Shown here piece by piece: positions 21,281-58,415 of a stretch of DNA of 64,000 bases. A program made the position numbers and the translations under genes. Source of the stretch: Salinadaptatus halalkaliphilus (GTDB lineage: Archaea > Halobacteriota > Halobacteria > Halobacteriales > Natrialbaceae). Each line of letters begins with the position of its first letter. Within the stretch, counting starts at the first letter, position 1. Location: the NCBI RefSeq assembly GCF_006543045.1, contig NZ_RBZW01000055.1:62001-126000 (forward strand). Reading direction: 5' to 3'. The notes beneath the pieces were generated by a model. It worked only from the letters and a program-made list of their open reading frames with translations. It made no database searches and was not told where the DNA came from.

Positions 21281-21323
21281 TGAGTCATAAAATTCAAATA
21301 CCGGTCCACTAAACGGGAGAGTG

Positions 21324-22361
21324 ATGAGTGATACTCCATCGCAGCGAGATGGCACACGTAGCGTGTCGCGCAGACGATTCACTGCCTTCGGTGTGGGAGC
21401 GCTCGCGACCGGTCTGGCTGGATGTATCGGGGGTGCTTCGGACGACGACCCCGAGGATCAGAACGTCGCAGTCGCGTCGTTCTTTACGTTCTACGACTTT
21501 ACCCGGCAGATCGCCGACGAAACGCCGATGTCGGTCGACAATCTCGTTCCCGTTGGCCTCCACGGCCACGGCTGGGAGCCGGACCCGACGATCACACAGG
21601 ACATCGTCGATGCCAACGCGTTCATCCACGTTGGTCCGGACTTCCAGCCCTGGGCCGATCGGGCGATCGAAACGGTCGAGGACGACGGTGCAGATACCCA
21701 CCTCATCAACGCTCGAGAGGGAGTCGAACTGCTCGACCTCGCCGAGACCGTGGAGGACGACGAGGAAATCGAGGGGGGGAAAGATCCCCACTTCTGGCTC
21801 GATCCGGAGTTGGCAAAACACGCGGTCGACAACATCGCGAACGGGCTCGCCGAGGTCGCACCCGACCACGAGGGCGAGTTCGCCGACAACGCCGACGAAC
21901 TCAAAGGCGAGTTAGACGAACTCGACGCGGAGTGGGAGGCGATCTTCGAGGAGGCAGAGCGAGAATACGTCTTCCTGGCGGCACACAACGCCTTCGAGTA
22001 CCTCGGCCAGCGATACGCCACGACGATCCAGCCGTTGATCGCGAACCTCGCCGCGGCCGACGATGTCCGGACGAGTGACATGCAGTACGCAGAAGACATG
22101 ATCGCCGAACACGACATCCAGTACATCGGAGCAGCGATCTTCGAGCCTAACTCCTGGGCAAAGCAGTTAGTCGACGAGACCAATGCCGAGGCGTACTATC
22201 CCGTGACCCCCTACGCCGGAACGAGAGAGGAGTGGGTCGACCAAGGCTGGGGTTACTTCGACATCGCTCGTAATATCAACATGCCGACGTTCGAGATCGT
22301 TCTCGACGCAGCGGATCCGTCGGAGACGACCCTCGGTGAGGAGTGGCGCAACTTCGACTGA
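21324..22361 (+). CDS. Metal ABC transporter substrate-binding lipoprotein (ZnuA/TroA-like, cluster 9)
   Basis: A 345-residue extracellular binding protein for Zn, Mn or Fe. The N-terminus has a Tat motif (SRRRFTAFG) and a lipobox L-A-G-C (about residue 35), so it is a lipid-anchored Tat substrate. Candidate metal ligands are the His in LHGHGWEP (about 71-74), DPHFWLDPE (about 155-160), AAHNAFEYLG (about 220) and the Glu/Asp in the final lobe. The ATG at 21324 is preferred to GTG 21321. First gene of the SBP-ATPase-permease operon. Confidence 0.93.
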   Translation: MSDTPSQRDGTRSVSRRRFTAFGVGALATGLAGCIGGASDDDPEDQNVAVASFFTFYDFTRQIADETPMSVDNLVPVGLHGHGWEPDPTITQDIVDANAFIHVGPDFQPWADRAIETVEDDGADTHLINAREGVELLDLAETVEDDEEIEGGKDPHFWLDPELAKHAVDNIANGLAEVAPDHEGEFADNADELKGELDELDAEWEAIFEEAEREYVFLAAHNAFEYLGQRYATTIQPLIANLAAADDVRTSDMQYAEDMIAEHDIQYIGAAIFEPNSWAKQLVDETNAEAYYPVTPYAGTREEWVDQGWGYFDIARNINMPTFEIVLDAADPSETTLGEEWRNFD

Positions 22362-22394
22362 CACAATCTCCACCCACCAGCAAACCCCATCATA

Positions 22395-23132
22395 ATGACA
22401 CACATATCGGTCGAGGATGTCTCGTTTGGATACACCGCAAGTCCCGTGGTCCGAAACACATCGTTTACCGTCGAGAAAGGGGAGTACGTCGGCGTCATTG
22501 GGCCGAACGGCTCCGGCAAGAGCACGCTTCTCCAGTTGATCCTGGGACTGTACGAACCCGACAAGGGAACCATCGAACTGTTCGGCCAGCCGTCTCGAGC
22601 CTTCGTCGACCGCGAACGCGTCGGCTACGTCGCTCAGGACGTCACGGAGAACACGAAAGAGATGCCGATCACCGTCGAGGAGGTCGTCCTGATGGGGCGA
22701 TTTCCCCATGCAGGCTTCGGGCGAGTCGGCTCCGACGATCGCAGGCGCACGCGAGAAGCCCTCCGGACGGTAGGGATCGATCACCTCGCCGGTAGGAAGA
22801 TTACGAAGCTCTCGGGCGGTCAGCGCCAGCGGACATACATCGCACGGGCACTCGCCAGCGAGGCAGACTTGCTCGTTCTCGACGAGCCGACCGTCGGCGT
22901 CGACGCGGAATCCATCGAGGACTTCTTCGACCTGCTCGATCGACTCAACGACGACGGCATGACGATCCTGCTCGTCGAACACGACATCGAAGCCGTCCTC
23001 GAGCACACCGGTCGCGTACTCTGTCTCAACCGGACATTGTACTTCGACGGTCCACCCGGCGCGTTCGTCGATAGCGACGCGCTCGAGCGGGCCTACGGCA
23101 TCGAAACCCAGCGAGGAGAAGTGACACCATGA
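22395..23132 (+). CDS. znuC: Metal ABC transporter ATP-binding protein (ZnuC-like)
   Basis: A 245-residue ABC ATPase: Walker A GPNGSGKST (about 36-44), signature LSGGQRQR (about 139-146), Walker B LLVLDEPTVG (about 157-166), and the H-loop in VEHDIE (about 195). It powers the metal importer with its neighbours. It is 33 bp after the binding protein and overlaps the permease start by 4 bp (ATGA), so they are translationally coupled. Confidence 0.95.
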   Translation: MTHISVEDVSFGYTASPVVRNTSFTVEKGEYVGVIGPNGSGKSTLLQLILGLYEPDKGTIELFGQPSRAFVDRERVGYVAQDVTENTKEMPITVEEVVLMGRFPHAGFGRVGSDDRRRTREALRTVGIDHLAGRKITKLSGGQRQRTYIARALASEADLLVLDEPTVGVDAESIEDFFDLLDRLNDDGMTILLVEHDIEAVLEHTGRVLCLNRTLYFDGPPGAFVDSDALERAYGIETQRGEVTP

Positions 23133-24151
23133 CGCCGTCACCGACATCGACGCTGACAATCGCGAGCGTCGATGGCCTCGTCGTTCCTAGTGTGACCGGT
23201 TTGCCGACGGGTGCTATCGGCTGGCTCATCGATCGTTGGAGCGATCTGCTGTCGGCCGTTGGCGACGCCGCCGGCATCGAAATGCTCCAGTACGGGTTCA
23301 TGCACCGGGCGTTTCTGGTCGGGGTCCTGATCGCGGTGATGGCACCGCTGATCGGAACCTTCCTCGTCCACCGTCAACTCGCGCTGATCGGTGACGCGCT
23401 CGCACATACGGCCTTCGCCGGCGTCGCGGTCGGACTGTTCGTCAACGCGGTGCTGGGGACGGGTATCTCGCCGTATCTTACCGCCGTCGTCGTCGCAATG
23501 ATCGCTGCGCTCGCGATCGAGTTGATCTCGGAGGTTACCGACGCCTACAACGATGTCTCGATGGCGATCGTCCTCTCGACCGGGTTCGCACTGGGGGCCG
23601 TACTGATCAGCCTCAACGCCGGCGGGCTCGCCGTCGGGATCAACCAGTACCTGTTCGGGAACCTCGCGACGGTCTCGCGGTCGAACGCGATGATCCTGAT
23701 CGGCCTCTTTCTGGTCGTCACGCTCGTCGTCGGAACCACGTACAAGCAGTTGCTGTACGTGACCTTCGACGAGACCGCCGCCAGGGTCGCCGGCCTCAAC
23801 GTTCCCTGGTACAATCGGATCATGACGATGCTCACCGCGATGGTCGTCGTCGGCGCGATGCAGATTATGGGCGTGATCCTCGTCGCAGCCATGTTGGTCG
23901 TCCCGGTTGCCGGCGCGGCCCAGCTCGCCCGGAGTTTCCGGGAGGCGTTGCTGGCGTCGATTATCCTCGCCGAACTCGCCGTGCTCGTAGGAATCACGCT
24001 CTCGTTCCAGTACGAGGCCACCGCGGGCGGGACGATCGTCCTCGTCGCCGTTGCACTCTACGTCGGGGCTGTCCTCCTCGGGAAAGTTCAGTCGAATCGA
24101 AAAACGGTGGGCGATATCCATGCAACCGCCGAAGAACAGACTGCCGACTGA
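23129..24151 (+). CDS. znuB: Metal ABC transporter permease (ZnuB/TroC family)
   Basis: A 340-residue ABC-3 family membrane subunit with about eight or nine hydrophobic helices; family-typical stretches include HRQLALIGDALAHTAFAGVA (about 81-100) and MQIMGVILVAAMLVVPVA (about 246-263). The N-terminal about 50 residues form a non-conserved extension. The start ATG overlaps the end of the ATPase gene by 4 bp. It exports no metal itself; it forms the channel of the importer. Confidence 0.95.
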   Translation: MTPSPTSTLTIASVDGLVVPSVTGLPTGAIGWLIDRWSDLLSAVGDAAGIEMLQYGFMHRAFLVGVLIAVMAPLIGTFLVHRQLALIGDALAHTAFAGVAVGLFVNAVLGTGISPYLTAVVVAMIAALAIELISEVTDAYNDVSMAIVLSTGFALGAVLISLNAGGLAVGINQYLFGNLATVSRSNAMILIGLFLVVTLVVGTTYKQLLYVTFDETAARVAGLNVPWYNRIMTMLTAMVVVGAMQIMGVILVAAMLVVPVAGAAQLARSFREALLASIILAELAVLVGITLSFQYEATAGGTIVLVAVALYVGAVLLGKVQSNRKTVGDIHATAEEQTAD

Positions 24152-24916: not shown

Positions 24917-25253
24917 ACGACGGTATCGGTGCTGGACGCTCAAAACGGTTCACGTTTGCGACGCGATTATCCGCCTCGAAACGCCCCGCGATGCTAGCCA
25001 ACACGTAATCGATCGATACTCATCGAAAGAATTATTAGCTATCACCAATAATTACATACTGCCCATCCAGATGGTTTCGTCTGGAGGCAGACCCCCACCC
25101 GCTTGTCATTCCATCCCCATCCCCAACGACTTCCGCGGTTGGGATCCGCGGCCGGCGAGGGCTCGATACCCTCGCTTTTGCTCCCCTTCGAAAACCGCCT
25201 GCTCGTACGCTACGTAACTCATAATGAATGCAAGGCGGAAACCCGCGTCTTTA

Positions 25254-25317
25254 TTGGTGAGATGGATGCGGATGCCATCGAACTGGTCGTCGATGGCATC
25301 CGCATCCATCTCACCAA
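25254..25317. repeat. Perfect 28-bp inverted repeat (hairpin, 8-base loop)
   Basis: Bases 25254-25281 are the exact reverse complement of 25290-25317, with the loop actggtcg between. Such a long perfect stem is far beyond what protein coding or a terminator needs. It is the largest of four hairpins in this element. Confidence 0.95.
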
Positions 25318-25432
25318 GGTGGTACAGCAGCGACTTCGAGAGCGGGCTTCGGTCTTCGAGGTTCAGCTCTTCGCCCCGAGCCAACTGGAGGTGTCTAGCA
25401 CTGGTGTTCGTGAACTCACGGTGGAATGCGCT

Positions 25433-25465
25433 CCGAGTGAGGACTCTGGAGAAGTCCTCACTCGG
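25433..25465. repeat. Perfect 13-bp hairpin
   Basis: CCGAGTGAGGACT (25433-25445) pairs exactly with 25453-25465 across a 7-base loop (ctggaga). Part of the palindrome-rich element at 25.06-25.64 kb; a further 9-bp perfect hairpin follows at 25522-25543. Confidence 0.9.
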
Positions 25466-25687
25466 GTAGGTGCCGTTAGGCTTCGTTCCGAAGTCCAGAG
25501 CAGGATACAGCAGCGACCTACGGCACGGCAGACTTGCCGTGCCTCGGTAGTAATGACCATGTTCTAAATAGGATGTCACCGGAGAAAACTGTCTTTCAGG
25601 CACTTCGGCAACTACTGTTTAGCGCGGGGAGGATGTCAAGTATCGTGAGTATCCAACACTGGTCGATGAACTATATATGTTCGGCTG

Positions 25688-58385: not shown

Positions 58386-58415
58386 TTGACATCCTCCTCC
58401 GCGTGAACGCGGAGG
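58386..58415 (-). mobile_element. Right-end terminus of the TnpB element: hairpin plus GGATGTCAA end
   Basis: A perfect 8-bp hairpin (CCTCCGCG, 58396-58403, with CGCGGAGG, 58408-58415, loop TGAA) is followed by ATCCTCC and the TTGAC end, reading GGAGGATGTCAA on the minus strand. This is the subterminal structure recognised in IS200/IS605 right ends. It lies 33 bp past the tnpB stop codon. Confidence 0.7.

Follow-up and report, generated by a model that had tools for sequence, protein, structure and literature searches.

A hairpin-rich patch of the Salinadaptatus halalkaliphilus genome combines a small-RNA-like locus, two IS200/IS605 outer ends and a truncated ISH3-like insertion sequence

Make-up of the hairpin-rich patch

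The window analyzed here is a 64,000-nucleotide stretch on contig C66 of the source genome (G000), and the patch under study lies at positions 25030-25640. The initial annotation had described 25060-25640 as one gene-free, palindrome-rich element with an IS200/IS605-like terminus, resembling the palindrome-associated elements (PATEs) of haloarchaea or possibly a structured RNA. Repeat search and the sequence itself indicated that all the sequence features it listed were present. The 28-bp stem (25254-25281/25290-25317) and the 13-bp stem (25433-25445/25453-25465) were recovered as perfect stems by repeat search, the 9-bp stem (GGCACGGCA/TGCCGTGCC, 25522-25530/25535-25543) and a short stem at 25060-25089 were visible in the sequence, and two copies of TACAGCAGCGAC were located at 25323 and 25506. 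The inserted part of the patch contained three perfect stems of 9 bp or more in 0.36 kb, compared with 0.14 per kb in 35 open reading frames of the window, and its stems exceed chance.

The 581-base block was then used as a query against 125 genomes of the family. Matches stopped at fixed query points: some genomes matched 1-132, other genomes 158-194, further ones 209-574, and many matched 545-581, each segment having its own identity. The patch is three neighbouring or nested pieces rather than one PATE or one element: a conserved small-RNA-like locus, two IS200/IS605 outer ends, and a broken foreign insertion sequence (IS) between these ends. The source genome held no second copy of the whole block, just short partial matches, so the search for further copies that the initial annotation had proposed found a single-copy interior and not the repeat of a non-autonomous family. 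Rfam returned for the patch only subthreshold miRNA models, which were dropped as they had been drawn by the 28-bp stem; phage records gave no match to the patch, and PDB and PHROGs gave nothing useful.

Small-RNA-like locus

The region 25030-25195 was single copy and conserved in 19 Natrialbaceae genomes. It starts with an A+T-rich block (AATTATTAGCTATCACCAATAATTACATAC, 25030-25059, plus strand), which stands just upstream of TGCCC in the 19 genomes and may act as a promoter. Then follows a candidate small RNA (25060-25195, plus strand), delimited by alignment, consensus fold and covariance-model matches, with a hairpin at 25060-25089 (TGCC..CCAGA..TCTGGaGGCA), a C-rich strand (CCCCCACCCGCTTGTCATTCCATCCCC) and two further stems. 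The hairpin starting at 25060 was nearly invariant across the 19 genomes. The covariance model of 25060-25195 matched 23 of the 392 genomes of the order, every one in Natrialbaceae, and 17 of the 23 had strong scores. The covariation fold that had been suggested as a check did yield a consensus structure, but it was held up mainly by invariance, with little covariation, and the window sequence folded just moderately better than its shuffles (MFE z-score -1.84). Rfam had no meaningful match for 25060-25195.

This sequence was also conserved without the IS element in other genera. In L012 and L017 the locus is followed by what by eye is seemingly the acetyltransferase gene that also follows it in the window. 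The spacer of both was too diverged for an empty-site comparison, and G000 was the only genome of its genus among those compared. Upstream of the locus in the window, three adjacent genes at 21321-24151 (binding protein, ATPase, permease) resemble by eye a metal ABC transporter operon. We regard 25060-25195 as an unannotated small-RNA candidate rather than a proven one. Its 25060 hairpin is separate from the IS pieces and is part of the small-RNA-like locus that adjoins the element.

IS200/IS605 outer ends

The outer left end of an IS200/IS605 element of TnpB type was found at 25219-25253 (plus strand), where it runs up to the palindrome tip. At 33 of 33 nt it agreed with a stretch that precedes a tnpB gene of Natronorubrum bangense by about 110 bp, and other genomes gave further matches of 91-100%. 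The outer right end (TTTAGCGCGGGGAGGATGTCAA, 25618-25639, plus strand) is of the same type as the end of the TnpB element at 58386-58396 (minus strand). The string GAGGATGTCAA occurred in the window at two places only, 25629 plus and 58386 minus, and in none of 100 shuffles. The marks of IS200/IS605 ends were therefore found on both sides, as the left end is a sequence that stands upstream of tnpB and the right end is of GGATGTCA type with a palindrome. The terminus recognized in the initial annotation is thus a true IS200/IS605-type right end, and shares GAGGATGTCAA with the TnpB element end at 58.4 kb.

Because a matching left end lies only 0.4 kb from the right end, the two outer ends form a PATE-like unit. 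When they are joined so that a single TTTA remains, a shell of 57 nt results whose centre is palindrome-like and which resembles the 52-bp terminal-only PATEs of Haloquadratum. The shell would fit the definition of a PATE; the block as originally described would not, as its stems come from an ISH3-like gene. The palindrome halves at the site (CCCGCGTC / GCGCGGGG) are in imperfect register, and of the further genome copies expected for a PATE the source genome had short partial matches alone. TnpB elements of the IS200/IS605 family are the source of both outer ends, but no tnpA or tnpB is left at the site. In this the shell is like the PATEs of Haloquadratum walsbyi, which likewise have IS605-type ends without a transposase gene. 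The original target was either a PATE, or a full element with later loss of its core.

The ISH3-like remnant

Alignment to L147 and L006 identified the piece between the two ends (25254-25617, minus strand) as a truncated and frameshifted ISH3-like IS that retains the 5' part of the transposase gene, the leader and one terminal repeat. Over 25268-25633 it shared 97% identity with the full-length, 1.37-kb copy of Natrialba swarupiae (G041:C68, L147), whose terminal repeats are CAGTAGTTGCCGA. So the description of the patch as gene-free held in part only, since 25268-25560 on the minus strand is a transposase pseudogene that covers roughly the first 100 codons and has lost 1 nt near 25516; the encoded protein was 76% identical to transposase residues 11-100. 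One terminal repeat (TCGGCAACTACTG, 25605-25617, plus strand) is intact. Because the second terminal repeat is absent, the left boundary of the remnant was placed by the position of TTTA. This tetranucleotide stands at 25250-25253 and again at 25618-25621 (both plus strand), and the two identical copies represent the target duplication, in agreement with the TNNA rule from 74 sites described below.

The stems of the patch could be assigned to this gene. The 13-bp stem (25433-25465) is conserved helix 1 of the transposase gene, and the 9-bp stem (25522-25543) lies at the start of the gene, with the same stem in L147, L091, L034 and L160. The 28-bp perfect stem (25254-25317) has as its core a conserved 14-bp stem (25268-25281/25290-25303), and relatives have the 14-bp stem only at this position. 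Its extension is an inverted copy of 25304-25317 at 25254-25267, which is private to the window copy and meets the IS605 flank exactly at TTTA. The AGGATGTCA at 25570, once suggested to be a second or older end, was ruled out as such: it is part of the transposase leader, is incompletely conserved and reads AGGATGTCG in a relative. A functional role of TACAGCAGCGAC as a repeat was also ruled out, as both copies encode SLLY in homologues.

No intact copy of this IS clade was found in the source genome among the matches listed, where the other match had 30% identity. A second relic, in which a related IS end is joined to an IS605 right end (TTCAGTGCGGGGAGGATGTCAA), was noticed on contig C29 of the same genome (L003:1440-1536).

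Taken together, the site is very probably an IS200/IS605 outer shell of TnpB type, or a PATE, that was split at its TTTA tip by an ISH3-like DDE IS which was later truncated. The observed parts of this explanation are the two IS605 outer ends, the matching TTTAs, what the insert is and how it is truncated, and the almost exclusive targeting by the intact relatives. The IS would have entered the TTTA tip of the terminal palindrome and subsequently lost its other end. A broken IS end may have folded back on the conserved 14-bp hairpin and copied 14 nt, which would produce the 28-bp stem, and the extended end may then have been joined, exactly at TTTA, to a flank that had been cut where the transposon ends; this last part of the history is a conjecture.

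Target sites of the intact relatives

The sample consisted of 60 places and 78 named loci, in which IS boundaries were set by the terminal repeats and duplicate sites were removed. The named hosts include Natrinema, Natrialba, Natronorubrum, Halorubrum, Halorientalis, Halobellus, Halosimplex, Halapricum and Haloferax. Among the 74 distinct haloarchaeal sites, an IS605-palindrome half stood on each side of the insert in 65, on one side in 8 and on neither in 1. These exact fractions are approximate because the palindrome-half test, a simple pattern, and the outer/inner classes were defined after the first sites had been seen, and because close copies are not fully independent. The control, other TNNA sites in the same DNA, had halves on both sides in 167 of 15,708 cases (1.06%), a contrast large enough to survive these caveats. 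The flanking tetranucleotide was TNNA in 142 of 148 flanks, although the two flanks of a site agreed in only 47 of 74 pairs. Intact copies of the clade thus insert near-exclusively into the TNNA that forms the tip of an IS605 terminal palindrome. We found no report of an ISH3-like element with such targeting in the open-access literature, which is not proof of absence. Target-type palindromes free of an insert were found in 71 of the 125 family genomes, by a pattern that counts full and terminal-only elements together, and the reversed control gave none among the matches listed.

At the palindrome tip the transposase would make a 4-bp staggered cut, either in an extruded hairpin or in a symmetric double-stranded site. 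We give about even chances to the second form, in which the IS recognizes a symmetric duplex target (CCC..TNNA..GGG) rather than a hairpin, and IS605 palindromes just happen to be the most frequent sites of this kind. The duplicated target lies centrally on the axis of symmetry, the arms vary between insertions while TNNA and GGG persist, and IS1397 and ISRm22 are precedents, as both enter REP palindromes and ISRm22 does so on the symmetry axis (PMC1525189). Nothing decisive stands against it; complementarity of the arms does not discriminate between hairpin and duplex, because it is a property of IS605 palindromes anyway.

Insertion into a single palindrome was seen 19 times at a left and 5 times at a right palindrome, and 29 insertions lay between an outer left and an outer right half, the same arrangement as in the window; 16 sites had no assigned side. 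The two tetranucleotides were non-identical in 14 of the 29 outer/outer sites and in 5 of the 24 single-palindrome sites, which suggests that at least some of the former involve two different palindromes. Outer/outer sites have three possible origins: the IS inserted into a terminal-only PATE, two inserted copies recombined, or both palindromes were captured. The last route would mean that the transposase joins the IS ends to the left and right palindromes of one IS605 element and thereby deletes its core. The excess of non-identical tetranucleotides speaks for such a deletion, as do two 63-bp derivatives (L152, L155) whose tetranucleotides also differ, but recombination between two inserted copies yields the same product and outer/outer sites in perfect register fit insertion into terminal-only PATEs, so we consider it unlikely.

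Several short elements were noticed during this survey. The 63-bp derivatives (L152:1501-1563 and L155:1501-1563, both from the Natrialbaceae genome G038) are miniature elements with the same terminal repeats, located between palindrome halves, and an 82-bp miniature of the same genome (L156:1501-1582) has the same terminal repeats and, by eye, one clear palindrome half. Natrinema gelatinilyticum (G055) has at least five identical short palindromes with left-end-like and right-end flanks (GAAAGCCCACGACTGCAGTCGTGGGAGGATGTCA, e.g., C1:173468-173501), possibly a homogeneous family of terminal-only PATEs. Two identical IS605-end palindromes in direct orientation, 103 bp apart, were found at G044:C80:8867-9003.

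Hairpins in the transposase gene

All 15 transposase homologues analyzed, down to 39% amino-acid identity, had 4-6 perfect stems of 9-16 bp, compared with 0.05-0.5 expected from codon shuffles that keep the protein. The hairpin array spans the whole gene, for example L147:235-1342 and its homologues. No perfect stems were found in two TnpB genes or in eight DDE relatives at greater distance. In an alignment of 26 genes, three helices were 93% paired with 12 pairs changed on both sides, and the covariation score was 0.188, compared with 0.091 after shuffling and no more than 0.055 after sliding. All helices tested together gave 1579 Watson-Crick cells, 27 G-U and 41 A-C, a set that includes clade-specific helices picked for pairing, so that absolute percentages are inflated, while the choice of helices has no obvious directional effect on the G-U to A-C ratio. 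These counts did not support structure of the sense mRNA as the cause. Because G-U is not favoured over A-C, unlike what is expected of sense-RNA structure, the constraint looks to be at the DNA level, or a mutational process that corrects palindromes; covarying hairpins of this kind suggest a DNA-level cause.

These results also bear on the earlier proposal that the hairpins are near-terminal palindromes of a PATE, since the 28-, 13- and 9-bp stems sit in an unrelated ISH3-like transposase gene. According to that proposal the whole of 25060-25640 is one unit, mobilized in trans by an IS200/IS605 transposase that recognizes the hairpins. True IS605-type right and left ends are indeed present, and PATEs are documented in Haloquadratum. 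But the hairpins map to the transposase gene and to the syntenic small-RNA-like locus, the block has no second copy in the genome, and other genera have a conserved 25060-25195 but not the element, which leaves the proposal highly improbable. The PATE reading is refuted for the interior, and what stands of it is the PATE-like unit of the outer ends, whose 35 + 22 bp alone may have been a PATE. Scarcely credible is one structured RNA across all four hairpins: 25060-25195 is conserved and foldable and may be an RNA by itself, but the other three stems belong to the transposase gene, in an insert absent from other genomes with this locus, they show no G-U preference across homologues, and even 25060-25195 alone has only the modest z-score given above.

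Family placement of the insertion sequence

The ISH3 family comprises IS4-related DDE insertion sequences of archaea (PMC2266710). Transposases of the clade carry Pfam DDE_Tnp_1, and the best NCBIfam model was ISH3 (NF033541), with 139 and 147.3 bits, which is below its curated cut-off of 225. The published ISH3 signature Y-(2)-R-(3)-E-(3)-R (PMC2266710) was found in the clade as RRRWGIETxYR, which was invariant in the alignment, with Y or F as the first residue; every aligned member retains R-(3)-E-(3)-R. The clade differs from the family, apart from its scores, in a 4-bp duplication (TNNA) where ISH3 elements typically have 5 bp (PMC2266710), in its palindrome-tip targeting, and in its hairpin array, which the ISH3-like genes examined at greater distance lacked. 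For five more distant ISH3-like copies boundaries were found in one, and it was outside any palindrome.

Discussion

The window finding by itself is a dead remnant and ordinary; the interest lies in the intact family to which it leads. In the preferred explanation, an IS200/IS605 shell or PATE split by an ISH3-like IS, the insertion should have disabled the IS605 element, as transposition requires the end that it splits; an insertion at the right end should also split the scaffold of the guide RNA.

IS1397 and ISKpn1 are members of the IS3 family. Together with ISRm22 and other insertion sequences they target REP sequences, so that they and the present clade all enter short repeated palindromes, ISRm22 at the symmetry axis (PMC1525189); IS1397 and ISKpn1 target REP units, however, whereas the clade targets the end of an IS200/IS605 element. 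The PATEs of Haloquadratum lack terminal inverted repeats, have near-terminal IS605-related palindromes and are too short for a transposase gene, the terminal-only PATEs of Haloquadratum walsbyi being 52 bp long (PMC3119063). SMR-A repeats of about 110 bp, with terminal repeats, are inserted in the near-terminal palindromes of PATE/IS605 elements; they were reported to be without target duplication and without similarity to transposons, and in 2011 their mobilizer was reported as unknown (PMC3119063). Both SMR-A and our clade insert specifically within near-terminal palindromes and are mobile elements that target mobile elements, but, as far as SMR-A can be compared by description, the clade is a full DDE IS with 13-bp terminal repeats and mostly a 4-bp TNNA duplication. 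A search of plasmid PL47 for this link found no clear IS605 end or candidate repeat, and a family of 77-137 bp repeats ended by CAGTAGTT was found in none of 170 genomes of the family of G144, the scattered matches being similar to the control.

It is possible, though doubtful at present, that the clade is a dedicated hyperparasite of IS200/IS605 elements that reads the extruded hairpins of their palindromes, that the 4-6 DNA hairpins of its gene take part in the transposition cycle, and that its miniatures are the counterpart of SMR-A. The gene hairpins might act, for example, through a single-stranded or cruciform stage.

What is of real interest is the intact family, for its near-exclusive targeting of palindrome tips and for the hairpins, apparently at the DNA level, that its transposase gene carries. 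Watson-Crick covarying hairpins are unexpected in protein-coding sequence, and a role of DNA structure or a mutational process that perfects palindromes is directly testable. That some elements insert into the ends of others is not new, but a DDE family near-absolutely specific for the tips of IS200/IS605 palindromes is a concrete mobilizer candidate, of the kind that SMR-type repeats need. It would also act as a brake that nature has put on TnpB elements and on the guide RNAs they encode, and it offers a transposase with a narrow target, open to laboratory testing.
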